Assembly: GCA_022794215.1 (NCBI GenBank)
Contig: JAAWEH010000021.1
Coordinates: 50,089 to 114,088 of the forward strand
Source of the DNA: Oscillospiraceae bacterium
Lineage (GTDB): Bacteria > Bacillota > Clostridia > Oscillospirales > Oscillospiraceae
DNA length: 64,000 bases
Reading direction: 5' to 3'
Below are positions 9,221 to 62,020 of this stretch, one piece after another. A program made the translations under genes and the position numbers. The stretch's first letter is position 1; each line of letters begins with the position of its first letter. The notes beneath the pieces were generated by a model. That model made no database searches. It saw nothing but the letters and a program-made list of their open reading frames with translations, and was not told the origin of the DNA.

Positions 9221-9391
9221 TCACTTCAAAGAAATCTCCCCATGCTCCCGCTCAAACGCATCCACATACGCAATAATCGACCGCCGCACCACACTACTGG
9301 CACTTCGACAATCATACTGGGCAATATATTTCAATTTTTCCAGTAGTTCTTCTGAGATAGAAAATCCCAAATGCTTTTTTGCTTTTGCCAT
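9221..9391 (-). CDS. Small ribbon-helix-helix (CopG/Arc-like) protein, 56 aa
   Basis: Translated by hand (below the ORF track cutoff): MAKAKKHLGFSISEELLEKLKYIAQYDCRSASSVVRRSIIAYVDAFEREHGEISLK*. Confidence 0.7.
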   Translation of the reverse strand: MAKAKKHLGFSISEELLEKLKYIAQYDCRSASSVVRRSIIAYVDAFEREHGEISLK

Positions 9392-55294: not shown

Positions 55295-55939
55295 ATGAAG
55301 AAAATGACACGCTTTTTGACGGCGGCCGCTCTGTCCGGCGTGCTGCTGGTGGGCGGCACGGCCGCCTTTGCCGCGGAGGGCGGCATTTCCGTTCAGTTGG
55401 ACGGGCAGGAGCTGAGCTTTACCGACGCGGTTCCCCAGGTGAAGGATCAGCGGACTTTCCTGCCCTTCCGGGCCGTCTTTGAGGCCATGGGCGCCGAGGT
55501 ATCCAACGAGGGCAGCGTTATCACCGCCACCCGGGACGGCAAGACCCTGACCATGACCCTGAATGAGACGGCCGCCACGGTGACCGAGGGAGACAAGACC
55601 ACCGCCATCACCATGGACGTGGCCCCCTATGTGGACAGCGAGACCTGGCGGACTTACGTGCCTGTCCGGTTTGCGGCTCAGGCCTTCGGCTGCGCCGTGG
55701 GCTGGGATCAGGAGAAGAGCACCGCCGTTATTGTGGACGCAGGCAAGGTGGTGGACGAGGCCCTGGAGGGAAAGAGCTTTACTTACCTGGAGAAGCTGGT
55801 GGAGTACAGCGAGAAGTACAACGAGGGCATCTGGGATATGGAGGCCGGCTTTGACGCCAACCTGACCATGATGGCTATGCCCATGACTATGAGCGGTACC
55901 CTCTCCGGCACCGTTGCCGACAATGAAATGAGAAGATGA
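55295..55939 (+). CDS. Copper-amine-oxidase N-terminal-like stalk domain protein, 5' part of an apparently frameshifted gene
   Basis: Signal peptide; QVKDQRTFLPFRAVFEAMGAEV...WRTYVPVRFAAQAFGCAVGWDQEKSTAVI; stops at ATGA shared with the next ORF. Confidence 0.85.
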   Translation: MKKMTRFLTAAALSGVLLVGGTAAFAAEGGISVQLDGQELSFTDAVPQVKDQRTFLPFRAVFEAMGAEVSNEGSVITATRDGKTLTMTLNETAATVTEGDKTTAITMDVAPYVDSETWRTYVPVRFAAQAFGCAVGWDQEKSTAVIVDAGKVVDEALEGKSFTYLEKLVEYSEKYNEGIWDMEAGFDANLTMMAMPMTMSGTLSGTVADNEMRR

Positions 55940-56799
55940 GCATGGACATGAACATGAAGATGGATCTCACCGAGTACATCAAGTCGGTGAATCTGCTGAT
56001 GGCTCAGATGGGCGGAGAAGGAGTAGAGCTCTCTGCCGAGGACCAGGCCATGCTGGACGCCCTCAAGACCGACGGCTTTGACCTTGCCCTGCGGGGGGAT
56101 ATGGCCGAGGGTACGCTTTATATGAACATGAAGGGCGATATTATAGCCGCTGCCGGCATGAACGGTGAGGATTGGTATAAGCTGGACATGGCCACCCTGA
56201 TGGATCAGATGGGTATGGATTGGGCCGAGCTGATGGCCGCCTCCAAGAACCTGGACTATACCGCTTTGGCAAAGAGCGCCATCGGTTCGCTGAGCCTGAA
56301 TGATTCCACCACTGCCTATACCCAGGTGAAGGAGACGGTGGAGAAGATCGTGAATGCGGTTTCTGACGAGGGCTTTGTGAAGGAAGGAAACGAGTATACC
56401 GCGATCGTTGCTATGGAGGAGGACGACGCCGTTGTTATGATGGTGCTCGTCATGACCATGGAAAAGGATGCCGTGACCGGGTATGTGATGGGAGTGTCTA
56501 TGGAGGCTACGGAGGATGAGATGACCGTGTCTATGGACATGACCGTCTCCGTGGACGACAAGGATCAGATGACCGCTGAGATGCACATGGACGCGGCGGG
56601 ACTCATGACGATGGAGATGACCATGGACGGCAGCTACACCCAGGGTAAGACCGCCCCGGCCACCGAGCCCCCCGCCGGGGCCAATGTGGTGGATCTTATG
56701 GAGCTGATGTCTGAGGAGATGAACGCTGAGGAAAAGGCGGCTCTGGGCATCATCGGCGGCGCCGACGGCCCCACCAGCACCTATGTTGCCGGATCTTGA
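55936..56799 (+). CDS. Met-rich hypothetical protein with C-terminal GIIGGADGPT tail, 3' part of the same gene or coupled ORF
   Basis: MSMDMNMKMDLTEYIKSVNLLMAQMGG...ALGIIGGADGPTSTYVAGS; begins in the -1 frame at the upstream stop. Confidence 0.75.
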   Translation: MSMDMNMKMDLTEYIKSVNLLMAQMGGEGVELSAEDQAMLDALKTDGFDLALRGDMAEGTLYMNMKGDIIAAAGMNGEDWYKLDMATLMDQMGMDWAELMAASKNLDYTALAKSAIGSLSLNDSTTAYTQVKETVEKIVNAVSDEGFVKEGNEYTAIVAMEEDDAVVMMVLVMTMEKDAVTGYVMGVSMEATEDEMTVSMDMTVSVDDKDQMTAEMHMDAAGLMTMEMTMDGSYTQGKTAPATEPPAGANVVDLMELMSEEMNAEEKAALGIIGGADGPTSTYVAGS

Positions 56800-56926: not shown

Positions 56927-56955
56927 TTGACAGGCTGGGAATGAAATGGTAATAT
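56927..56955 (+). promoter_or_regulatory. Sigma-70-type promoter of the met leader
   Basis: TTGACA (56927-56932) - 17 nt - TAATAT (56950-56955). Confidence 0.85.
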
Positions 56956-56990
56956 AACGAAAAATCACTCAGGAAGGAGGCGCGTTGAAA

Positions 56991-57083
56991 ATGACTCACG
57001 GTTATGGCATGATGATGCGGAGCATGGACATGGCGATGATGCCGATGCCCACGATTTTGCGCGCCTCCGCACAGATGTTCTGA
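56991..57083 (+). CDS. Putative 30-aa methionine-rich leader peptide
   Basis: AAGGAGG at 56974-56980; MTHGYGMMMRSMDMAMMPMPTILRASAQMF*, 10 of 30 residues Met; between a strong promoter and an intrinsic terminator, upstream of metN. Confidence 0.75.
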   Translation: MTHGYGMMMRSMDMAMMPMPTILRASAQMF

Positions 57084-57113
57084 GAAATCACGGTCTTTGG
57101 GCCGATTTCAGAA
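57078..57113 (+). promoter_or_regulatory. Leader hairpin overlapping the leader-peptide stop codon
   Basis: ttct(ga)gaaatc(ac)gg-tctttggg-ccgatttcagaa. Confidence 0.5.
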
Positions 57114-57115
57114 AG

Positions 57116-57149
57116 CGGGAAGCGCGTAGGCGTTTCCCGTTTTTGTTTT
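57116..57149 (+). terminator. Intrinsic terminator (attenuator) upstream of metN
   Basis: cgggaagcgc-gtag-gcgtttcccg followed by tttttgtttt: 10-bp stem (one G-U), tetraloop, U-tract. Confidence 0.88.
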
Positions 57150-57210: not shown

Positions 57211-58245
57211 ATGAACGTGATAAAACTGGATCACATCAGCAAGACCTTCGGCAGCGAGGAGGCCGGAGTCCACGCCGTTCGGGACGTAACATTGCAAATC
57301 GCCCCCGGCGAGATCTTCGGTATCATCGGTTACTCCGGGGCGGGCAAGTCCACCCTGGTTCGATGTATCAACCTGCTGGAGAAGCCCACCGCCGGCACCG
57401 TGACGGTGGATGGACAGGAGCTGACACGAATGCCGGCGCGGGAGCTGCGTCAGGCCCGGAAGAAGATCAGCATGATCTTCCAGCTTTTTAACCTGATGCC
57501 CTCCCGCACCGTGGCCGAGAACGTGGCCTTCCCCCTGAAGGGTTCCGGGCTCTCCAAGGAGGAGACCAAGGCCAAGGTAAACGAGCTTTTGGAGCTGGTG
57601 GATCTGCCGGACAAGGCGGAGGCCTACCCCTCCCAGCTCTCCGGCGGACAGAAGCAGCGGGTGGCCATCGCAAGGGCCCTGGCCAGCGATCCCAAGGTGC
57701 TCCTGTGTGACGAGGCCACCTCTGCCCTGGATCCCCAGACCACCCGATCCATCCTGCGGCTGATTCAGGATATCAACCGGAAAACGGGGATCACAGTGGT
57801 GGTCATCACCCACGAGATGGCGGTGGTGAAAGAGATCTGCCACAGAGTGGCGGTGATGGAGCTGGGCCGGGTGGTGGAGCTGGGAAGCGTGTTTGACATC
57901 TTCTCCAACCCCCAGCAGAGCGTGACCCGATCCTTTATCGCAACCACCTCTAACCTGGGCAAGATCGATGAGCTCATCGCCGCAGATGACCCCCTGGTGG
58001 CGGTGAAACCGGGGGCGGTGGTGGCCCGGCTCAACTATAGCCAGAGCAACACCGGCGAGGCCACCATTTCCGAGATCTCCCGGAAATTCAATGTGGATGT
58101 GAGCATTGTGTTCAGCAATGTGGAGATCATTGAGGGCCAGCCCTTGGGCGGCCTGGTGGCCATCATCAGCGGAGACAGAGTGACCGAGGCCATCGGATAC
58201 TTAAGCGAGAAAAACGTGATGGTGGAGGTGCTCAAGCGTGGCTGA
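57211..58245 (+). CDS. metN: Methionine ABC transporter ATP-binding protein with NIL domain
   Basis: [59 protein letters not shown]...[16 protein letters not shown]-terminal NIL-like region. Confidence 0.95.
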
Positions 58246-58918
58246 TTTTCTCTATTCGATCATCCCCAACGTGATGGATAAGCCGGAGCAGCTTTGGCAG
58301 GCCTTTGTGGAGACCATCCAGATGGTGGGGATTTCCGGCATCATCTCTCTGGCTCTGGGCATCCCCTTCGGAGTGCTGCTTTACACCACCAAGACCGGAG
58401 GGATCCTGGAAAACAGGCCCATCCACTTTGTCCTGGGCAAGATCTGCGACGTGTTCCGCTCCATCCCCTTCATTCTGCTGGCCATTTTGCTCATCGGCCT
58501 GAGCCGGCTGATCCTGGGAACGGGCATCGGCGTGAAGGGCGCCATCATCCCCCTGCTGTGCGCCACCATCCCCTATCTGGGCCGGCAGGTGGAGGGAGCT
58601 TTGGCGGAGGTTCCCGACGGCCTTGTGGAGGCGGCGGAGGCCATGGGCTGCTCCCCCTGGGAGATCATTTGGCGGATCTACTTAAAGGAGGCCATCCCCG
58701 GGATTGCCCGGGGCGTGACCATTACCCTGATCTCCCTTATCAACTTCACCGCCGTGGCGGGGGCTGTGGGCGCCGGAGGACTGGGCAACTTCGCCATCTC
58801 CTACGGCAGCAACCGCCGGCAGACCGACATTGCCGTGGTGGTGGTCATCATCATTATTATTATGGTCAGCATCATCCAGACCATCGGCTCCACCGTCGCT
58901 AAGAAAGCGACCCATTAA
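58238..58918 (+). CDS. metI: Methionine ABC transporter permease
   Basis: FVETIQMVGISGIISLALGIPFGVLLYTTKTGGI...AAEAMGCSPWEIIWRIYLKEAIPGIARGVTITLISLINFTAVAGAVGAGGLG. Confidence 0.96.
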   Translation: MADFLYSIIPNVMDKPEQLWQAFVETIQMVGISGIISLALGIPFGVLLYTTKTGGILENRPIHFVLGKICDVFRSIPFILLAILLIGLSRLILGTGIGVKGAIIPLLCATIPYLGRQVEGALAEVPDGLVEAAEAMGCSPWEIIWRIYLKEAIPGIARGVTITLISLINFTAVAGAVGAGGLGNFAISYGSNRRQTDIAVVVVIIIIIMVSIIQTIGSTVAKKATH

Positions 58919-58985: not shown

Positions 58986-59870
58986 ATGAAAAAGAAGAAT
59001 ATCATCGCCCTGACCCTTACCGCCACTTTGAGCCTCAGCCTGCTGGCTGCCTGCGGCGGCGGTTCCGCCACCACTCCTGCTCCCCAGGAGTCCACTCCCG
59101 CTGAGGAGACCGCTCCCGTGGAGACCGGGGCTCCCGAGACCACCGTGGTTACCGTGGGTGTGGTTGGCGCCAACAACGACCAGTGGATCACTGTCAATGA
59201 GCTGCTGGCGGCGGAGAACATTGAAGTGGAGATCAAGGAGTTTTCTGCCTACAACATTCCCAACGACGCTCTGAACGCTGGGGAGATCGACCTGAACGCC
59301 TTCCAGCACAAGGCTTACCTCAACAATGAGATCGAGGCCCAGGGCTATGACATCACCGTTTTGGGCGACACCATTATCGCTCCCCTGTCCCTCTACTCCG
59401 ACAAGATCACCTCTGTCGGAGAGCTGAAGGAGGGCGACCAGATCGCCGTACCCCAGGATCCCACCAACGAAGGCCGCTGCCTTAAGATCCTGGAGGCCCA
59501 GGGTGTGCTGAAGGTGGACCCCGCCGCCGGGTATATGCCCGAGCTGAAGGACATCACCGAGAACCCCCTGAACCTGAAGTTCGTCGAGGTGGAAGCCGCC
59601 CAGACCTCCACTATGCTGCCTGACGTGGCCGCCGCCTTTATCAACGGCGCTCACGCCTCTGACGCCGGCCTGACCCCTGACGACGCCATCTGCACCGAGA
59701 CCGTGGAGCCCGGCAGCGACAACCCCTACATCAACATCATCGCCTGCCGCACCGCCGACCTGGAGAACGAGACCTACCTGAAGGTGCTGGCTGCCTATCA
59801 GTCCGCTGAGACTGCCCAGGCTATCAAGGACATCTACAAGGGCCTGTATATCCCCGCTTTCCAGTACTAA
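58986..59870 (+). CDS. metQ: MetQ/NlpA-family substrate-binding lipoprotein
   Basis: Lipobox LLAAC; VGVVGANNDQWITVNELLAAENIEVEIKEFSAYNIPNDALNAGEIDLNAFQHKAYLNNEI. Confidence 0.95.
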   Translation: MKKKNIIALTLTATLSLSLLAACGGGSATTPAPQESTPAEETAPVETGAPETTVVTVGVVGANNDQWITVNELLAAENIEVEIKEFSAYNIPNDALNAGEIDLNAFQHKAYLNNEIEAQGYDITVLGDTIIAPLSLYSDKITSVGELKEGDQIAVPQDPTNEGRCLKILEAQGVLKVDPAAGYMPELKDITENPLNLKFVEVEAAQTSTMLPDVAAAFINGAHASDAGLTPDDAICTETVEPGSDNPYINIIACRTADLENETYLKVLAAYQSAETAQAIKDIYKGLYIPAFQY

Positions 59871-59879
59871 GACAGATTT

Positions 59880-59922
59880 TAGGGTGGCCCTTCCGTTTGA
59901 AAGAACGGCAGGGCCGCCCTTT
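59880..59922 (+). terminator. Hairpin between metQ and its paralog
   Basis: agggtggcccttccgtttgaaagaacggcagggccgccctttt. Confidence 0.7.
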
Positions 59923-59948
59923 TGACCTGCAAAAGGAGGCGCGTTTCC

Positions 59949-60782
59949 TTGGAGGCATTGGGTTTGGCCATGAGCCTTGCCGCAGCCCTTGCGCTGGGTG
60001 TCTGTGGGGGAATGATAGCCCCTGTGGATACGGGGCAAGAGCCTGACGGCGTTACTGTGGTTAAAGTGGGTGTGACAGGAGATCGCAATCCCCAGTGGGA
60101 TACGGTGAATGCTTTGCTGGAAGAGGAGCATATCCGGGTAGAGCTGATAGAGTTTATGTCCTATGAGCTGCCCAACCGGGCTTTGGCGGCTGGGGAGATC
60201 GACCTGAATGCCTTTCAGCATAAGGTATATCTGGAGCGAGAGGTAGAAACCTGGGGCTATGACATTGTCTCTTTGGGGGATACCCTGATGGCTCCTTTTG
60301 GGCTTTATTCTGAGAAGCTCACCTCCATAGAAGAGTTAAAGTGGGGCGGCAGGATCGCTCTTCCCAACGACCCCGGAGGGGAAGGCCGCTGCTTTAAGAT
60401 TTTGGAGGATATGGGCGTGCTGGAGCTGGATCCCGCTGCCGGATACACCCCGGGGGTGGCGGATATCACGGAAAACCCGCTGAACCTGATGTTTGTGGAA
60501 GTTGAGGCCCACTACACTGCCCGTATGCTGCCGGATGTGGATGCTGCCTTTGTGGGAGGGGCTTTTGCACTGGACAACGGTTTGTCCCTTTCAGACGCCA
60601 TATATACCGAAGCGGTTCGGCCCGGCGGGGACAATCCCTATGTCAATGTGATTGCCTGCAGAGCGGAGGATTTGGAGAATGAGATCTACCTGAAGGTGCT
60701 GGCTGCCTACCAGTCTCCGGAAACGGCCAGAGCCATTTTGGAGGCATATGGGGGCGTCTATGTCCCCGGGTTTTCATATTGA
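59949..60782 (+). CDS. Divergent MetQ paralog, probably TTG start
   Basis: LEALGLAMSLAAALALGVCGG...VGVTGDRNPQWDTVNALLEEEHIRVELIEFMSYELPNRALAAGEIDLNAFQHKVYLEREV; AGGAGG 9 nt upstream of the in-frame TTG. Confidence 0.85.
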   Translation: MEALGLAMSLAAALALGVCGGMIAPVDTGQEPDGVTVVKVGVTGDRNPQWDTVNALLEEEHIRVELIEFMSYELPNRALAAGEIDLNAFQHKVYLEREVETWGYDIVSLGDTLMAPFGLYSEKLTSIEELKWGGRIALPNDPGGEGRCFKILEDMGVLELDPAAGYTPGVADITENPLNLMFVEVEAHYTARMLPDVDAAFVGGAFALDNGLSLSDAIYTEAVRPGGDNPYVNVIACRAEDLENEIYLKVLAAYQSPETARAILEAYGGVYVPGFSY

Positions 60783-60832: not shown

Positions 60833-62020
60833 ATGGATTTTCGCAAAGAAGCGCAGGCCCTGGCCCCCTACCTCTCCGGCCTGCGCCGGGAGTTTCATAT
60901 GCACCCGGAGGTGAGCCGGCAGGAGTTCTGGACGGCGGAGCGCATCGAGAAGGAGCTGGACGCCATAGGGATTGCCGATCACAGGCGGGTGGACGGCAGC
61001 GGGGTCTACGCCGTGTTTCACGGGGAGAAGCCGGGAGACCGGGTCATGACCCTCCGGGCGGACATCGACGCCCTGCCCATTCAGGAGGAGAATACCGCCC
61101 TGCCCTACTGCTCCAAGGAGCCGGGAGTGATGCACGCCTGCGGCCATGATGGACACGCCGCCGGACTTTTGGGCGGGGCCAGGCTGCTCTACAGCCACAA
61201 GGCGGAGTTTGGCGGAGAGGTGCGGCTGTTCTTCCAGCACGCCGAGGAGATCGGCTACGGTGGCCGGGTGTTTGTGAAGGAGGGACTGCTGAAGGGTTCT
61301 GGGCGGGTGTTTGGTATCCACATGGCCCCCGACCTGAAGGTGGGCACCGTGGGGGTCAAGACGGGGCCCAACAACGCCAGCGTGGATCACTTCACCATTC
61401 GGGTGAAGGGGGTGGCCTCCCACGTGTCCAAGCCGGAGCAGGGGGTGGACGCCCTTTACATTGCCAGCCAGATCGTGGTGGGGCTCCAGGCACTGGTTAC
61501 CCGGCGAACTTCTCCGGTGGATCCGCTGGTCATCGGGGTGGGTAAGCTGACGGCGGGCACGGCCTATAACATTGTGGCGGAGAACGCTGTGCTGGAGGGT
61601 ACCGTCCGGGCCATGACCGCTGAGACCCGGAAGAACGCCCAAAAGTGGATCAACGCTCTGTGCGCCCAGACTGCCCAGCTCTACGGGGGCACGGCGGCGG
61701 TGGAGTGGATCGACTTTGCCACCCCCCTGGTGAATCCGGAACTGGGCTGTAAGGAGGCCGGACAGGTGGTCACCGACCTCTTTGGGCCCCAGGCCCTGGT
61801 CACTGACCGGGAGCTGTCCCTGGGGGGAGACGACTTCGCGGAATTTCTGCTGACGGTTCCCGGCTGCTATGCCTATGTGGGCAGCGCCAGCGACAGCCGG
61901 CCCGAGACCCGGCGGCCGCTGCACAACGACGGGATGGACCTGGACGAGGGGGCCCTCACCGTGGCGGCGGTCCTTCACGCGGAGTACAGCTGGAGGTACC
62001 TCACGGGGGCATTTGATTGA
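60833..62020 (+). CDS. M20D amidohydrolase (hippurate hydrolase / N-acyl-amino acid hydrolase type)
   Basis: LRREFHMHPEVSRQEFWTAERI...VMTLRADIDALPIQEENTALPYCSKEPGVMHACGHDGHAAGLLGGARLL. Confidence 0.94.
   Translation: MDFRKEAQALAPYLSGLRREFHMHPEVSRQEFWTAERIEKELDAIGIADHRRVDGSGVYAVFHGEKPGDRVMTLRADIDALPIQEENTALPYCSKEPGVMHACGHDGHAAGLLGGARLLYSHKAEFGGEVRLFFQHAEEIGYGGRVFVKEGLLKGSGRVFGIHMAPDLKVGTVGVKTGPNNASVDHFTIRVKGVASHVSKPEQGVDALYIASQIVVGLQALVTRRTSPVDPLVIGVGKLTAGTAYNIVAENAVLEGTVRAMTAETRKNAQKWINALCAQTAQLYGGTAAVEWIDFATPLVNPELGCKEAGQVVTDLFGPQALVTDRELSLGGDDFAEFLLTVPGCYAYVGSASDSRPETRRPLHNDGMDLDEGALTVAAVLHAEYSWRYLTGAFD

Follow-up and report, generated by a model that had tools for sequence, protein, structure and literature searches.

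The window analyzed here, a stretch of 64,000 nucleotides from an Oscillospiraceae bacterium (contig JAAWEH010000021.1, positions 50,089 to 114,088), carries on its forward strand a methionine importer operon, metNIQ. The operon begins with metN (57211-58245), which encodes the methionine ABC transporter ATPase with its C-terminal NIL domain (TIGR02314 at 4.6e-118, a match below the curated cut-off of that model; NIL PF09383 at 8e-17), followed by the methionine ABC permease gene metI (58238-58918; PRK10782, 6.2e-55) and the substrate-binding lipoprotein gene metQ (58986-59870; PRK11063, 5.6e-59). Downstream and on the same strand lie a second metQ-like gene for a substrate-binding protein (59922-60782; PRK11063, 2e-48) and, after it, an amidohydrolase gene (60833-62020; TIGR01891). 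These last two genes may share the operon with metNIQ, and their predicted products suggest that a methionine derivative is taken up and hydrolyzed.

On the other side of the operon, also on the forward strand, an open reading frame at 55936-56799 encodes a Met-rich protein of secreted type that ends in LGIIGGADGPTSTYVAGS. Only its last 25 residues match the sodium-pump decarboxylase beta subunit (TIGR01109, PF03977), and the IGGADGPT tail is also present in one relative (L070). Immediately before it, a forward-strand reading frame with a Cu_amine_oxidN1 domain (55295-55939; PF07833) overlaps it by a few bases (ATGA), such that the two may represent either one frameshift-split protein or a translationally coupled pair.

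Between these genes and metN, the window holds a compact leader region. A sigma-70-type promoter at 56927-56955 (TTGACA, a 17-nucleotide spacer and TAATAT, with TG ahead of the -10 hexamer; 10 of 12 positions agree with the consensus) precedes a Shine-Dalgarno core, GGAGG, at 56976-56980 and a short reading frame, MTHGYGMMMRSMDMAMMPMPTILRASAQMF, that runs from the ATG at 56991 to the TGA ending at 57083 and is predicted to be translated. Ten of its 30 codons are Met, and this Met codon cluster sits ahead of an operon for handling methionine. Between the leader reading frame and metN we found an intrinsic terminator, a hairpin at 57111-57144 with a folding energy of -24.2 kcal/mol (z = -6.56 against shuffles) and a following U tract, TTTTTGTTTT.

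Folding of this region revealed three competing helices, arranged as in trp. Region 2 (57058-57070), which lies within the leader reading frame, can pair with region 3 (57115-57128), which doubles as the terminator's 5' arm and a portion of its loop, and the resulting antiterminator (2:3) excludes the terminator (3:4). The first-pass annotation had listed these base pairs one by one, together with a separate hairpin at 57078-57113 over the leader stop codon, and both hold: the pairs agree with the sequence, and the hairpin forms nested inside the antiterminator in the ribosome-masked folds described below. The region 2 duplex with the terminator arm has an energy of -20.6 kcal/mol, which only 1% of shuffled leaders equal or better, and when shuffling was restricted to the stretch that separates the stalled ribosome from the terminator, the antiterminator of the window ranked at 0.05 by energy and at 0.08 by pairing probability. 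The annotation had missed a third partner, however. In the minimum free energy fold, region 2 (57059-57068) also pairs with the leader's own Shine-Dalgarno segment, GGAGGCGCGT (56976-56985), which makes this segment region 1 and region 2 an anti-Shine-Dalgarno strand as well as the 5' strand of the antiterminator. Without a ribosome, this protector (1:2) forms with a probability of 1.0 and the terminator follows, so that the computed fold of an untranslated leader is one of termination.

We then evaluated how the position of a translating ribosome would set the balance among these helices, using folds in which only the 5' arm of the terminator had been transcribed, the A site was placed at a given codon and three ribosome footprints were assumed. 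With the A site at Met codon 7, 8, 9, 12, 14, 16, 17 or 19 (57009-57047), region 2 was left free and the mean antiterminator probability was 0.75-0.76, falling to 0.65 only for codon 19 with the longest footprint. It dropped to 0-0.17 from codon 22 on and was zero at codon 24 and all later positions through the stop. The boundary thus falls right after codon 19, and every internal Met codon except codon 29 lies on its permissive side. Competition of this kind in ribosome-masked folds is what the first-pass annotation had staked its proposal on, and the antiterminator came through it, at about 0.76 for codons 7-19 against 0 at the stop.

At full length, the picture is different, as at equilibrium the terminator wins in every ribosome state (0.91-0.92), and with the ribosome at codon 19, forcing the antiterminator yields -27.9 kcal/mol where the unconstrained fold reaches -37.9 kcal/mol. 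Because the terminator beats the antiterminator once both of its arms exist, the switch must be kinetic and operate during transcription. The identical calculation on Escherichia coli trpL gave the same pattern, with region 3 paired upstream at 0.62 in the stalled state and, in the full-length RNA, the terminator at about 0.85 whatever the ribosome state, and a proven attenuator therefore looks like this in such folds.

The leader is conserved within the genus, which named records identify as Pseudoflavonifractor-like Oscillospiraceae. The leader was present in all 16 genus genomes examined, each time with a Met-rich reading frame, and TATTGACA and the -10 region were seen in most of these loci. 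Both the frame and its Met codons persist between flanks that have diverged, and a peptide core of YGMMMxxMDMAMMPMP is nearly fixed across the genus, with a variable peptide end.

The pairing is kept as well. Against segment shuffles, the pairing probability ranked at or below 0.1 in 13 of 15 genus loci, and native 2:3 duplexes averaged lower energies than duplexes with swapped strands (-18.4 versus -17.6 kcal/mol; 335 of 20,000 permutations were as good). Of 195 alignment cells in helix 2:3, 149 were paired, compared with 61-126 when the strands were slid, and five cells carried double changes, although one slid control also reached five. For helix 1:2, the 15 genus loci had 131 of 150 cells paired (50-99 when slid) with zero double changes, and the swap test was not significant in the genus (2752 of 20,000); folds of several relatives also gave a mixed ribosome-free state. 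Taken over the genus, with relatedness among the genomes left in, these alignments point to modest covariation of the antiterminator: of the covariation in homologs that the annotation had looked to, pairing above the slid controls stands, but double changes are few.

One genome, G015, contains a second leader copy, MANQLCKYGMTLRLRTLDMAFAMPMLRRASAVIPKLG (L019; G015:C54, about position 9335; L034:1619-3685), located before a gene for an SBP_bac_5 oligopeptide-binding protein. This copy is Met-poor, with most Met codons replaced, several of them by Leu codons, and may be a retargeted or decaying attenuator.

Beyond the genus, a DNA similarity search found leader copies in none of 44 genomes, and we therefore located more distant relatives through MetN. 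In one scan, 28 of 41 clostridial or other Bacillota loci (ten of the 28 from the genus) had a Met-rich reading frame with a Shine-Dalgarno sequence before metN, as did none of the 37 other loci of the same scan; the background rate of such Met-rich reading frames was 0.0092 per 400 nucleotides. Met-rich leaders also occurred in further genomes of the order, and at least 20 distinct loci in other clostridial families combined a Met-rich leader with a terminator before metN. A terminator stood near the leader stop in all 36 leaders that had enough downstream sequence, a set that includes a paralog and near-duplicates, and in three more from a second set. The pattern ATGTGYATGNNNATGNNNATGCCN, which is blind to metN, matched four times in 392 genomes of the class, two of these being Met-rich leaders with a terminator before metN. 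Another pattern, ATGNNNATGGAYATGGCNATG, matched once in 151 genomes of the family, at a site that carries an in-frame stop.

In stalled-state folds of the distant loci, arm 3 was paired upstream in most, and less so with the ribosome at the stop, with 8 of 20 distant loci exceeding segment shuffles on stalled-state pairing. For roughly half of the distant loci, the antiterminator does not clearly surpass chance expectation, and one locus, L044, does not fit the layout. Because helix 2:3 was significant against whole-leader shuffles in only 13 of 37 loci, the case for an antiterminator rests mainly on the genus together with L046, L052, L056, L061, L063, L064, L112, L144 and L147.

The peptide core itself invites another explanation, namely that the nascent leader peptide is a sensor of a ligand such as methionine or S-adenosylmethionine, with arrest near its end, or release, setting the terminator. 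The conserved Met-rich core (MDMAMMPMP or MCMxMxMP) would be the sensing part. In line with such a role, the Mets are separated by a small set of residues (C, A, D, P) that reappear in different families under varying codons, while both ends of the peptide diverge. As a sign of peptide arrest, however, these conserved residues are suggestive only. Met codon number and spacing vary, the Asp-Ala-Pro part is missing in several families, and the clustered Met codons sit exactly where a starved ribosome would free region 2. With T-boxes for Met-tRNA replacing the leader elsewhere (see below), we consider ligand sensing by the nascent peptide distinctly improbable.

Across 28 leaders, 7.3% of the residues are cysteine, which frequently adjoins Met or lies between Mets. 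Cys codons, mostly TGC, occur beside Met codons in the leaders of L040-L064, L112, L135, L136, L144 and L147, and a C-A/S-H motif after the Met core recurs in several families (L045, L052, L060, L144, L147). This composition would fit a dual sensor of sulfur amino acids in which stalling at either Met or Cys codons antiterminates, as would the CMCRRMCAF ending of the leader proposed for Streptomyces lividans metL. The window leader is Cys-free, which makes such a sensor inapplicable here, and we give it very little credence. A broader possibility is that the Met-rich, often Met/Cys-rich, core is read both as a peptide and codon by codon, with the nascent chain joining in the stall, and that it senses methionine or sulfur amino acid status widely among clostridia by coupling attenuation to an effect of the nascent peptide. 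We hold this to be unlikely, though if true, the combined reading would help explain how attenuation by Met can work although starvation should block initiation.

The leader region could also be an RNA element that acts independently of translation (a riboswitch, a T-box or a protein-bound antiterminator) and happens to contain a reading frame. Both SAM riboswitches and T-boxes do occur elsewhere in these genomes, but at the window leader there was no Rfam match, either by gathering score or at E values up to 5, and a T-box leader (RF00230) and a SAM riboswitch (RF00162) were both rejected there for want of a match. The protector and terminator formed by the ribosome-free RNA, and the preservation of frame and Met codons between diverged flanks, likewise speak for translation, which leaves a coincidental reading frame highly improbable.

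T-boxes are instead informative about the signal. In relatives, T-boxes occur before metN in the same place as the leader, with an AUG specifier in seven loci (L043, L153, L154, L159, L160, L162 and L163), the specifier codon having been identified from the family alignment and from a pattern match. Within the family of one genome (G454), the Met-rich leader occurs in one genus (g250) and a T-box precedes metN in several genomes of another (g154), and in the MetN tree leader-bearing and T-box-bearing rows fall in different clades, implying at least two changes. Because T-boxes with an AUG specifier replace the leader at these genes, the signal at these metN genes is very likely the charging of Met-tRNA, as judged from the specifier sequences. 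Elsewhere, most genomes from the genus of the window retain a single SAM riboswitch; in G011 it lies just upstream of a MetK-like reading frame (L166:2405-3586, reverse strand). The SAM riboswitch and the Met leader thus seem to divide the work in this genus.

Together, the layout, its conservation, the computed fold states matching trpL, the gene context and the Met T-boxes at orthologous metN genes support the multi-state attenuator that the first-pass annotation had proposed, with two amendments: the antiterminator cannot beat a complete terminator, which makes timing essential, and the Shine-Dalgarno protector has to be added. We consider it highly probable that the leader regulates metNIQ by ribosome-mediated transcription attenuation in response to charged Met-tRNA; that the ribosome stalls on uncharged Met-tRNA, that region 3 is captured kinetically and that regulation runs in the direction given below is what we infer. 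When Met-tRNA is ample, the ribosome would reach the stop codon and cover region 2, allowing the terminator to form. When it is scarce, the ribosome would stall at one of the Met codons 7-19 and region 2 would stay free to capture region 3 once transcribed, which would forestall the terminator and let transcription proceed into metNIQ. In a leader that goes entirely untranslated, region 2 would pair with the Shine-Dalgarno segment and the terminator would form by default.

This last state bears on a point against the attenuator, which is that methionine starvation should also deplete initiator Met-tRNA, and could halt translation of the leader and favor the protector. Eight closely spaced elongator Met codons could, we infer, respond before initiation fails. 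Since the codon used for regulation also serves for initiation, the switch could function only by telling the charging of elongator tRNA apart from that of initiator tRNA.

Attenuation mediated by the ribosome has been described for Trp, His, Leu, Thr, Phe, Ile/Val and a small number of further cases, and in low-GC Gram-positives T-boxes usually do the job of leader attenuators. In Gram-positives, the regulation of methionine genes is ascribed to SAM riboswitches, T-boxes and DNA-binding regulators. Compared with E. coli trpL, the window has the same short leader reading frame with regulatory codons, the same 1:2, 2:3 and 3:4 pairing, and the same behavior in our calculation, in which the antiterminator is available only during the stall and the terminator wins at equilibrium. 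It differs in that the regulatory codons are Met, region 2 lies inside the reading frame and the role of region 1 falls to the Shine-Dalgarno sequence of the leader itself, and in preceding importer genes in a clostridium. A Met T-box at metN occupies the same position before the same gene and presumably answers to the same signal, uncharged Met-tRNA, but reads the tRNA directly by RNA pairing, and the window has no T-box match.

Leader-peptide attenuation in low-GC Gram-positives has itself been described for other amino acids, with his leaders in Firmicutes (PMC2965389) and branched-chain amino acid leaders in Staphylococcus aureus (PMC5794164) and Listeria (PMC5864092), while no conserved RNA structure emerged at the methionine operons in a survey of Actinobacteria (PMC1262725). 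For methionine, the only precedent we found in the open-access literature is metL of S. lividans, a leader before metNIQ proposed from RNA-seq (MSTTSDRTPATEATTTPGARCMCRRMCAF; PMC8079986). Like the window leader, it is a proposed Met-codon leader peptide ahead of the same genes, but its transcript is leaderless, it has only three Met including the start and it lacks a typical Rho-independent terminator (PMC8079986), whereas the window has a Shine-Dalgarno sequence, a Met cluster, an antiterminator and a terminator. Attenuators for other amino acids are long known, and what is new here is a complete putative Met-codon attenuator, with the Shine-Dalgarno sequence as region 1, in several clostridial families. 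A complete methionine leader common to several families of gut clostridia, and swapped with Met T-boxes at the same gene, would add a missing amino acid to these known systems.
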